From: Bacteroidota bacterium
Lineage (GTDB): Bacteria; Bacteroidota; Bacteroidia; B-17B0; Aurantibacillaceae
Assembly: GCA_029237825.1 (NCBI GenBank)
Contig: JAQZBQ010000011.1
Span: 1-64,000 of the forward strand
Direction: 5' to 3'
Length of the DNA stretch: 64,000 nt
Each line of letters starts with the position of its first letter. The stretch's first letter is position 1. The notes beneath the pieces are model-generated. The model saw nothing but the letters and a program-made list of their open reading frames with translations, searched no databases and was not told the origin of the DNA. This document shows positions 30,362-34,323 of this stretch, in pieces. The position numbers and the translations under genes are program-made.

Positions 30362-31036
30362 ATGAGTCAAGGATTCTTAAAATCATCGGTTGGAAAAAAA
30401 GTGTTAATGGGCCTCACGGGTTTGTTTTTAATATCTTTCCTATTAGTTCATTGTTTTATCAATAGTCTTATATTTTTTAACGATGGTGGTCTTACCTTTA
30501 ACACAGCCGCTGCATTTATGGCTCATAACTGGTTGATTCGGGCCGGGGAACTTGTGTTATTTGCAGGTTTAATTCTTCATGTCATTCAGGCATTAATTTT
30601 GACATTAGAAAACCGCAAGGCGCGGCCAGTTGGATACGCAAAATTTGATGGTGCAGCCAATTCTTCCTGGTATAGCCGTTCCATGGGGCTTTTAGGTACC
30701 CTTTTATTAATATTTTTAATTATCCATTTGATCCATTTTTGGGTAAAGTCGCGCTTCACGGGATTACCGGGAGAAGATGCAAATGGGAATGAAAATTTAT
30801 ACGCTGTAATGCAGTTTACATTTTCCATAGGAATTGTTGTAGTTATTTACGCTTTATCTATGATTTCATTAGCTTACCATTTATTACATGGTTTTCAATC
30901 AGCATTTCAATCATTGGGTTTAAATCATAAAACCTATACGCCGCTTATTAAAAAAGCGGGAGTAGCATTTTCATTAATTATCCCGTTCATTTTTGCCTTA
31001 ATGCCTGTACTTATGTACTTCGGTGTTATTAAATAA
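30362..31036 (+). CDS. sdhC: Succinate dehydrogenase/fumarate reductase cytochrome b subunit
   Basis: 224 residues, five membrane helices (about 15-37, 57-80, 107-127, 147-172, 190-220), the B-type (single large anchor, dihaem) subunit of succinate:quinone oxidoreductase. Histidines in FLLVHCFIN, ILHVIQAL, IIHLIHFW and AYHLLHGF are candidate haem b ligands. It anchors SdhAB to the inner membrane and passes electrons to menaquinone. First gene of the operon, 38 bases before sdhA. Confidence 0.93.
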   Translation: MSQGFLKSSVGKKVLMGLTGLFLISFLLVHCFINSLIFFNDGGLTFNTAAAFMAHNWLIRAGELVLFAGLILHVIQALILTLENRKARPVGYAKFDGAANSSWYSRSMGLLGTLLLIFLIIHLIHFWVKSRFTGLPGEDANGNENLYAVMQFTFSIGIVVVIYALSMISLAYHLLHGFQSAFQSLGLNHKTYTPLIKKAGVAFSLIIPFIFALMPVLMYFGVIK

Positions 31037-31074: not shown

Positions 31075-33087
31075 ATGAGTAAATTAGATTCAAAAATTCC
31101 TGAGGGACCTATTGACCAAAAATGGTCGAAATACCGTTCTACCGTTCATTTGGTTAATCCAGCCAATAAAAGGAGTCTAGAGGTATTGGTAGTTGGTTCG
31201 GGATTAGCCGGGGCTTCTGCCGCTGCAACCCTTGCCGAAATGGGATATAAAGTAAAAGTATTTTGTTTCCAGGATTCACCCCGTCGCGCTCACTCAATTG
31301 CTGCGCAAGGTGGAATCAATGCCGCTAAAAATTACCAGAACGATGGTGACTCGACCTACCGTTTATTTTACGATACCATTAAAGGAGGAGATTACCGTGC
31401 ACGTGAAGCAAACGTTCACCGTTTAGCTGAAGTATCTTCCAGCATTATCGATCAGTGCGTGGCACAAGGTGTTCCATTGGCCCGTGAATATGGTGGATTA
31501 TTAAGTAACCGTTCTTTTGGCGGCACACAGGTTCAGCGTACGTTTTACGCAGCAGGACAAACAGGGCAGCAATTATTATTAGGAGCCTACTCCGCTTTAC
31601 AGCGCCAGGTAGGTTCAGGCAACGTGACTTTATGTTCCCGACACGAAATGCTGGATGTGGTAACCATCGATGGTGTTGCCCGTGGTATCATAGCCCGTAA
31701 CTTGGTTACAGGCGAGATGGAAAAACATTTCGGACACGCAGTCTTATTATGTACCGGTGGTTACGGAAACGTATTTTATCTTTCTACGAACGCCATGGGA
31801 AGTAACGTTACTGCGGCATGGAAGGCCCACAAAAAAGGTGCTTTCTTTGGCAATCCATGTTATACTCAAATTCACCCAACCTGCATTCCTGTGTCGGGCG
31901 ATCATCAATCGAAACTAACCCTGATGTCTGAATCGTTACGTAACGATGGACGTATCTGGGTTCCAAAAAAGAAGGATGATAACCGGAAACCAACGGATAT
32001 TCCTGAAGAAGAAAGAGATTATTATTTAGAGCGTCGTTACCCTGCCTTTGGTAACCTCGTCCCACGTGACGTAGCTTCGCGCGCAGCCAAAGAACGATGT
32101 GATGCAGGCTATGGTGTAGGAAATTCCAAAATGGCTGTTTACCTGGATTTTGCTTTTAATACTGCCCGCTACGGACGAACTGAAGCTACCAAACGTAACA
32201 TTCAAAACCCAAGCCAGGAAGAAATTATGCGCTTAGGTAAAGAAGTTGTGAAAGAAAAATATGGTAACCTGTTTGATATGTACGAACAGATTACCGGTGA
32301 GAATCCGTACGAAGTACCGATGCGTATTTATCCGGCAGTTCATTATACCATGGGTGGATTATGGGTAGATTATAATTTAATGACTACCGTAAAAGGTTTG
32401 TATGCATTGGGAGAGGCAAACTTCTCTGACCACGGCGCTAACCGTTTGGGAGCATCCGCGTTAATGCAGGGATTGGCCGATGGATATTACGTAATTCCAT
32501 ATACTTTAGGCGTATACTTATCAGAAGAAGTGTCGAGGATGAGTGCAGAAAAAGATAAACCGGATTCAATTGATAAATTGAAAACGAAGCATCCTGCATT
32601 TGATGCGGCATTGAAAGAGCAAACAGATTTAATTAATAAATTTCTGACTATTAAAGGAACCAAATCTGTTGAAAGCTTCCATAAACGCTTAGGTTTGATC
32701 ATGTGGAACAAATGCGGCATGGCAAGAAATAAGCAGGGCTTAACAGAAGCAATTTCTGAGATACAGGCATTACGTCGTGAGTTCTGGAGCGATGTAAGGG
32801 TATTGGGAAGTGCCGATGAGATGAACCCTGATTTGGAAAAAGCAGGCCGAGTGGCTGACTTCTTAGAATTGGGTGAATTGATGTGTAAAGACGCGTTGCA
32901 CCGTGAGGAGAGCTGTGGCGGACATTTCCGTGAAGAGCACCAAACGGAAGAAGGCGAAGCGAAACGGGATGACGCTAACTTCGCATACGTTGCTGCATGG
33001 GAATATAAATCGGAGAGCAACTGGGAACTGAATAAAGAAGAATTGAAATACGAGAATATTAAGATAGCACAGAGGAGCTACAAGTAA
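31075..33087 (+). CDS. sdhA: Succinate dehydrogenase/fumarate reductase flavoprotein subunit
   Basis: 670 residues. The Rossmann FAD site [20 protein letters not shown] (about 39-58), His73 in [14 protein letters not shown], the residue that carries covalent FAD, the [18 protein letters not shown] segment, and [17 protein letters not shown] near the C-terminus are all conserved. It oxidises succinate to fumarate in the TCA cycle at the cytoplasmic face of complex II. Full length. The stop TAA at 33085-33087 abuts the left inverted repeat of the four-helix-bundle cassette. Confidence 0.96.
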
Positions 33088-33105
33088 TTAGGAAATAGAG
33101 AATAG
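33087..33105 (+). repeat. Left imperfect inverted repeat of the four-helix-bundle cassette
   Basis: ATTAGGAAATAGAGAATAG. It matches the reverse complement of the repeat at 33521-33540 at 15 of the first 18 positions. It starts on the last base of the sdhA stop codon. Confidence 0.55.
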
Positions 33106-33123
33106 TGATAAGCAAATAAAAAG

Positions 33124-33513
33124 GTGAGCGAGAAACTTAATTCATATAAAGATTTAATAGTGTGGCAAAAATCTGTCGCTTTAGTTACATCTATTTATGG
33201 ATTAACCAAAACCTTTCCTCTAGAAGAAAAATTTGGAATAGTTTCTCAATTAAACAGAGCGAGCGTTTCAATACCTTCAAATATTGCGGAGGGTTGGGGA
33301 AGAGAATCTTCAAAGAACTATTTACAATTTCTTCGGATATCCAGAGGATCTTTAATGGAAACTGAAACTTTATTAGAGATATCTAAAAATTTGGGATTAA
33401 TCAACAGCTCTGATTTTTCTAATATTTCTACTCAAATTCAAGAAGTAAGTAAAATACTTCAGGGACTAATTAAAAGCGTACAACAAAAAATAAAACTAAC
33501 ACAACCTGTTTAA
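33124..33513 (+). CDS. Four-helix-bundle protein (23S rRNA intervening-sequence/Avd-like family)
   Basis: 129 residues of the TIGR02436-type family: DLIVWQKSVALVTSIYGLT, FPLEEKFGIVSQLNRASVSIPSNIAEG, then NYLQFLRISRGSLMETETLLEIS. The conserved R-A-x-x-S-I-P-x-N-I-A-E-G core is intact. Relatives are encoded in 23S rRNA intervening sequences and, as Avd, in diversity-generating retroelements; the function of stand-alone copies is unknown. The start is GTG at 33124, as no ATG fits. The gene sits between sdhA and sdhB on the same strand, and imperfect inverted repeats flank it, suggesting insertion into the operon. No reverse transcriptase or rRNA is nearby. Confidence 0.85.
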   Translation: MSEKLNSYKDLIVWQKSVALVTSIYGLTKTFPLEEKFGIVSQLNRASVSIPSNIAEGWGRESSKNYLQFLRISRGSLMETETLLEISKNLGLINSSDFSNISTQIQEVSKILQGLIKSVQQKIKLTQPV

Positions 33514-33520
33514 GCAAAGG

Positions 33521-33540
33521 CTTATTGCCTATTGCCTAAT
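33521..33540 (-). repeat. Right imperfect inverted repeat of the four-helix-bundle cassette
   Basis: CTTATTGCCTATTGCCTAAT; its reverse complement ATTAGGCAATAGGCAATAAG pairs with the left repeat. Internally it is two copies of the heptamer TATTGCC. Confidence 0.55.
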
Positions 33541-33558
33541 CACAAACGACTAATAACC

Positions 33559-34323
33559 ATGGGATCAGGACACGGAACAGAATTAAATCTTACACTTAAA
33601 GTGTGGAGACAAAAAAATGCAAAAGCTGCAGGAAGCTTTGAAACGCATCAGTTAACCGGCATCTCAACCGACATGTCGTTTCTTGAAATGTTTGACGTTT
33701 TAAACGAAAAATTAATTCACGAAGGAAAAGAGGCCATCGCTTTTGACCATGATTGCCGCGAAGGAATCTGCGGAGCCTGCAGCATGTATATCAATGGAAG
33801 GCCTCACGGACCAAAGAACCTTGTAACCACATGCCAGTTGCATATGCGTTCATTTAAAAACGGTGATACCATCGTTGTAGAACCTTGGAGGAGCGCGGCC
33901 TTCCCTGTAATTAAAGATTTAGCGGTAGACCGTACTGCTTTCGACCGCATCATCGCCAGCGGCGGTTATGTATCGGTTAATACCGGTAACGCGCAGGACG
34001 CTAACAATATATTGATCCCTAAAGAAGCGGCAGACGAGGCATTTAGTGCGGCAGCGTGTATTGGCTGTGGCGCCTGTGTTGCAGCCTGTAAAAACGCTTC
34101 GGCTATGCTGTTTGTCTCAGCAAAAGTTTCGCAGCTTGCGTTGTTACCTCAAGGACAGGTAGAGCGAAAGGAGCGAGTGAAGAAAATGGTTGCCCAAATG
34201 GACGAAGAGGGATTTGGTAATTGCACCAATACCGGCGCCTGTGAAGCCGAATGTCCTAAAGGAATTTCACTGGAAAACATTGCGAGGATGAACCGCGAAT
34301 TAACAGCGGCGTCTCTTAAATAG
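33559..34323 (+). CDS. sdhB: Succinate dehydrogenase/fumarate reductase iron-sulfur subunit
   Basis: 254 residues. The [2Fe-2S] ligands are Cys66, Cys71, Cys74 and Cys92 ([20 protein letters not shown]). The ferredoxin-like C-terminal domain has Cys167, Cys170, Cys173 and Cys177 ([11 protein letters not shown]) and Cys222, Cys228 and Cys232 ([13 protein letters not shown]) for the [4Fe-4S] and [3Fe-4S] clusters. It carries electrons from SdhA to SdhC. ATG 33559 matches the family N-terminus. The gene lies 45 bases beyond the four-helix-bundle gene instead of directly after sdhA; a terminator follows. Confidence 0.96.

Follow-up and report, generated by a model that had tools for sequence, protein, structure and literature searches.

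The window, the 64,000-nt stretch of DNA analyzed here, contains a small gene between sdhA and sdhB. The sequence-only reading had assigned this gene to the IVS/Avd type and placed it on the same strand as its neighbors. Both points were borne out: the three ORFs share one strand, and a profile search matched the product over its full length to PF05635 (23S_rRNA_IVP; E 4.6e-40; score 136.6 bits, cut-off 33.8). We refer to it as IVP; to our knowledge, no function has been established for IVP/S23 proteins since their discovery in fragmented rRNA. The gene is bracketed by two short arms (Table 1). As read earlier, the left arm starts on the last base of the sdhA stop codon, 15 of 18 bases match the inverted right arm, and the right arm contains a tandem of TATTGCC heptamers. 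Both arms follow a 7-nt rhythm (left, TTAGGAA/ATAGAGA/ATAGTGA; right, inverted, TTAGGCA/ATAGGCA). The gap between sdhA and IVP reads TAATTAGGAAATAGAGAATAGTGATAAGC... and that between IVP and sdhB ...GGCTTATTGCCTATTGCCTAATCAC...; sdhB itself is kept in 57 of 60 relatives.

Table 1. Features of the sdhA-IVP-sdhB locus, in window coordinates.
Feature	Position	Strand	Description
probable sdhC	30362..31036	+	224 aa, operon head; ORF assigned by position and sequence appearance
sdhA	31075..33087	+	ORF with FAD_binding_2 and Succ_DH_flav_C domains; host gene 5′ of the cassette; stop TAA 33085-33087
left heptad arm	33087..33113	+	TTAGGAA ATAGAGA ATAGTGA TAAGC; inverted match to right arm; paired in predicted fold
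IVP gene	33124..33513	+	129 aa, GTG start; four-helix-bundle family, PF05635
right heptad arm	33519..33540	+	TTATTGCC TATTGCC TAAT; inverse of left arm; tandem TATTGCC, inverted match, predicted fold
sdhB	33559..34323	+	ATG start 33559; Fer2_3 and Fer4 domains; host gene 3′ of the cassette

Taken alone, the inverted repeat of the window is of modest significance (P is 0.0004 when compared with shuffles, 0.0016 with random window pairs, and 0.008 with control intergenic pairs), and the same 900 bp also holds other inverted repeats of similar length. We nevertheless judge it to be above chance because related IVP elements show both periodicity and matching of the two arms within an element. An RNA structure formed by the paired repeats had been suggested as a check, and the predicted fold of the segment is indeed closed by the left and right arms (z -2.15). 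At -26.3, the arm duplex is energetically no better than duplexes of swapped arms; duplex energy beats all swaps in 33% of elements, and the window element is not among them. An Rfam search of positions 32900-33700 matched no family, so that the cassette lies outside any rRNA gene, and searches of 15 other IVP loci likewise returned no rRNA.

PF05635 genes were present in 54 of the 60 genomes searched, at 1 to 12 per genome, and 119 such genes from related genomes were analyzed together with their flanks. The gaps on either side (medians of 50 nt on the left and 46 nt on the right) have lag-7 identities of 0.449 and 0.441, respectively, against 0.31 for control intergenic gaps of the same loci; the 7-nt period is confined to the IVP flanks. 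Aligned on this period, the left unit reads A-G-N-N-W-W-W and the right unit its inverse, with both N positions near uniform, and across phyla AG is constant and NN free. C is scarce in left gaps and G in right gaps, which disfavors pairing within a single arm. Left arms match the inverted right arms of their own element with a median score of 26, compared with 16 for swapped arms, and for 44% of elements the match lies above the 99th percentile of swaps. Relative to near relatives, the gain over swapped arms is slight (Wilcoxon p 0.03), and a test of heptad order was weakly positive (150 versus 143.2, sd 3.5). Across 66 sdhAB elements, left-arm NN and right-arm NN vary together (cosine 0.523 versus 0.226 swapped, p<0.0005; 2000 permutations, which leave relatedness in, reached a maximum of 0.325). 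The upstream gene is co-directional with IVP in 117 of 119 cases and both neighbors are in 108; counted by distinct junction, co-direction holds at 60 of 61 (P 1.3e-6 against a baseline of 76%). We also considered the heptads as all-frame stop-codon devices, for which left gaps (68%), right gaps (45%), and control gaps (70%) gave no signal.

The 119 elements occupy 61 distinct junctions, many of them recurrent, among others miaB/sigma-54 regulator (15 genomes), sdhA/sdhB (9), fadB/fadA (8), sufB/sufC (6), sufC/sufD (5), sufA-like/sufB (3), and pdh E1/E2 (3), where all gene names except sdh are our reading of the neighboring sequences. On the IVP tree, sequences from a shared junction or operon group together, rather than those from a shared genome (24 label changes versus 57.8 shuffled), and related IVPs sit at neighboring junctions of one operon, as at sufA/B, B/C, and C/D, or at fadB/A and thiolase/acyl-CoA dehydrogenase. 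When a named collection was searched, 58 of the 80 closest relatives of the window IVP were located at sdhA/sdhB, in Flavobacteriaceae (Xanthomarina, Olleya, Lacinutrix, Polaribacter, Arenibacter, Flavobacterium, and Capnocytophaga) and other Bacteroidota, and nearly all of these 58 have matching heptad arms. A single sdhAB clade of IVPs was rejected by the AU test (p 0.001), an outcome due mainly to a single sequence, L068. The IVPs between the miaB-like gene and the sigma-54-type AAA regulator form one clade in their 15 genomes and have quite different heptad units (L119, L133, L124, L111, L141, L137, L134, L109, L139, L140, L144, L147, L149, L104, and L055).

The sequence-only reading had advised a search for an empty site in close relatives. 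Among 20 genomes of the same genus, the window's own (G000) included, five have a bare 8-nt gap between sdhA and sdhB (TAATAGAAACT before the ATG, stop codon counted in). Five carry an intact IVP at the junction (G000, G015, G007, G009, and G001), one an IVP interrupted by a stop codon (G017), and three others remnants (G014, G013, and G018). Short gaps of 23 and 46 nt occur in two genomes; in three others a different gene of ~360 aa, which has no homolog in the window, takes the place of IVP (L004, L014, and L016), and in the last the junction falls at a contig edge. These states are scattered on the sdhB DNA tree, where G000 pairs with G016, G015 with G005, and G009 with G002, the second member of each pair having the ~360-aa gene. 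The window IVP shares 83% identity with the G015 protein and 39% with that of G007, whose SdhB is 96% identical to the window's; in this single genus, the junction has therefore hosted two or more IVP lineages that separated long ago. No target-site duplication was recognized by eye at these junctions, where the gap is short and diverged. In other genera, some IVP-free sdhA-sdhB gaps (L032, L067, and L077) resemble 7- or 8-nt arrays, which could be either remnants or a repeat class of their own.

The dN/dS ratio is 0.12 between the window and G015 IVPs, and its low median over 51 IVP pairs (0.078) indicates that the protein is kept by selection. Several sdhAB copies are apparently broken (G017, L187, L189, L193, and L238), which indicates that IVP is dispensable. 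These results bear on the proposal that the locus is a small mobile cassette. A discrete ORF with inverted arms in an operon gap, and relatives with empty, pseudogene, remnant, or other-lineage states, agree with it. Free mobility is not supported: the genome, where a search for other copies of both had been suggested, holds one IVP and no further copy of the repeat, the pattern of which is no commoner than its reversed control; lineages follow junctions, most close relatives share the sdhA/sdhB site, and the protein is under purifying selection. Random mobility in particular is ruled out by the site-clustered tree together with the single copy. A retroelement partner or a Y1 transposase acting in trans was likewise rejected, since searches of the window genome for RVT_1 and Y1_Tnp found neither. 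Conserved synteny with no repeat similarity elsewhere had been named as the outcome that would speak against a mobile cassette, and it describes the relatives largely, not fully.

Arms of the same kind, with heptads of their own, surround IVP genes in Chloroflexi, Planctomycetota, Patescibacteria, and Mesorhizobium records. In three Chloroflexi records (L182, L212, and L234; about 1.7-5 kb), the coding sequence of a histidine kinase harbors, between its GNAIKFT-like and DTGxGI boxes, a cassette with long heptad arms. The frame of the kinase stays open through both arms and IVP, which is overprinted in another frame; such a stop-free shifted frame accompanies 3 of 3 kinase-nested IVP genes and 0 of 183 others. 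Thus, cassettes can enter a coding gene with the host frame kept open.

Comparison of these sequences establishes the architecture of the element, the complementarity and covariation of its arms, its sense placement within operons, its junction lineages, purifying selection on its protein, and its empty/full polymorphism. Because the arms covary, the orientation is fixed in sense, the ORF would lie in the loop, and the protein is kin to those of rRNA intervening sequences (IVSs), a fold-back element acting in the transcript is suggested. In the Coxiella rRNA IVS, complementary ends bound the ORF and RNase III cuts the element (PMC4990558). We lean toward a comparable reading, which falls a little short of an even chance: a cassette at an operon junction that functions in the manner of an rRNA IVS. 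The heptad arrays, AGNNWWW on the left and its inverse on the right, would fold back into a terminal stem with the IVP gene in its loop. sdhA, IVP, and sdhB would be co-transcribed, and the arms would pair in the mRNA, presumably the acting form, and delimit the IVP message from its neighbors. RNase III, which the window genome encodes, would probably cut the stem and leave sdhA, IVP, and sdhB as separate RNAs, and an IVP pentamer would probably bind the stem or its heptads. The cassette would mostly be inherited with the operon and would often be lost, and sometimes a different IVP lineage would take its place at the junction. A broader proposal, possible but doubtful, is that AGNNWWW-armed IVP cassettes are widespread mRNA intervening sequences, excised from polycistronic mRNAs and in some Chloroflexi nested in kinase genes, with pentamers that read the heptads and lineages specialized for operons.

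Several results weigh against parts of this scheme, among them the weak outcome of the heptad-order test, the slight gain in arm matching relative to near relatives, and the unremarkable duplex energy of the window element. Selection on RNA should favor sense-strand G-U pairs, and these are not enriched (80 sense-type versus 104 antisense-type mismatches), which disfavors action at the RNA level. A constant AG is superfluous for mere pairing, which disfavors pairing as the sole purpose of the arms and suggests that something reads the heptad unit; the obvious candidate reader would be the IVP pentamer. The missing G-U asymmetry fits a cassette that acts as DNA, its arms being ends active in recombination or repair, which is moved or replaced at fixed permissive junctions by an enzyme acting in trans, or else via homologous recombination in the conserved flanking genes. 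Such a cassette would also explain why a single genus shows empty, full, broken, and remnant junctions, the divergence of IVP (39%) beside near-identical SdhB (96%), the AU rejection of a single sdhAB clade, and the insertions inside kinase genes of three Chloroflexi. It fits poorly with a single copy that has no shared ends elsewhere and no RVT_1 or Y1_Tnp, with ends that vary between elements, with a sense orientation nearly without exception, with lineages that track the junction, and with strong purifying selection on IVP, and we regard it as somewhat unlikely.

The constant reading of AG with free NN across phyla could instead reflect an ordinary regulatory gene of the operon. TRAP wraps RNA on its triplet repeats, and an IVP pentamer might similarly wrap the AG heptads of its own transcript and tune translation of IVP and sdhB, the inverse right arm being a competitor that hides the site. 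The dN/dS of 0.078, the junction-specific lineages, the closeness of the right-arm end to the start of the next gene, and the five chains found in crystals of each of two homologs of known structure (2gsc and 2rld) are all consistent with this. NN evolves rapidly beside a conserved protein, and many carriers have lost IVP and kept the operon; both facts count against regulation of this kind, which we consider unlikely. That the arms are chance or low-complexity intergenic sequence beside an unremarkable gene could be entertained from the window repeat alone, given its modest P of 0.008 against control gaps. Periodicity, complementarity, and covariation in more than 100 other elements refute it for the class, and for the window by itself, where the predicted stem speaks against it, it is highly improbable.

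The proposed IVS-like cassette resembles several known systems, and IVP proteins, rRNA IVSs, and heptanucleotide repeats have all been described before. With the 23S rRNA IVSs of Coxiella and Leptospira that carry an S23p/IVP ORF, it shares the protein family, an ORF between stem-forming complementary ends, a patchy distribution at conserved sites, and decay of the ORF in some lineages (PMC4990558). It differs in that the host is a junction in a protein-coding operon rather than an rRNA helix, heptad arrays make up the arms, purifying selection acts on the ORF, and excision by RNase III without ligation, as in rRNA IVSs, is putative. Avd and bAvd of diversity-generating retroelements have a related four-helix-bundle fold, and the window IVP scores 29.8 bits with the bAvd profile (PF22296); unlike them, it falls under the bAvd cut-off of 40, and its genome is without a reverse transcriptase. 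Like MITEs and other small non-autonomous transposons, the cassette is short, has terminal inverted repeats and no transposase, and is absent from an empty site in relatives. Unlike these, it is single copy, sense-only, and junction-specific, and encodes a conserved protein.

TAACTGA heptamers form direct repeats in Beggiatoaceae, Cyanobacteria, and Bacteroidetes (PMC4679880). They resemble the arms in being 7-nt intergenic arrays near start codons, and their inverse, TCAGTTA, fits the AG-type heptad; in contrast to the arms, they were described as direct repeats, and that report nowhere mentions an IVP gene. Among open-licence PMC papers, we found no report of operon-embedded IVP genes bracketed by self-matching heptad arms at fixed junctions. 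Many IVPs of the genomes examined occupy fixed junctions in housekeeping operons (sdh, suf, fad, pdh, and miaB), each in its own matching pair of arms. This arrangement would give a large protein family a concrete and testable role, in mRNA processing or operon regulation, and may explain some bacterial heptanucleotide arrays.

In one further arrangement, at 45151-48915 of contig 2 of G045 (L045 and L092), three IVP genes lie in series and alternate with ABC-permease-like genes, as if a unit of gene plus IVP had been duplicated.
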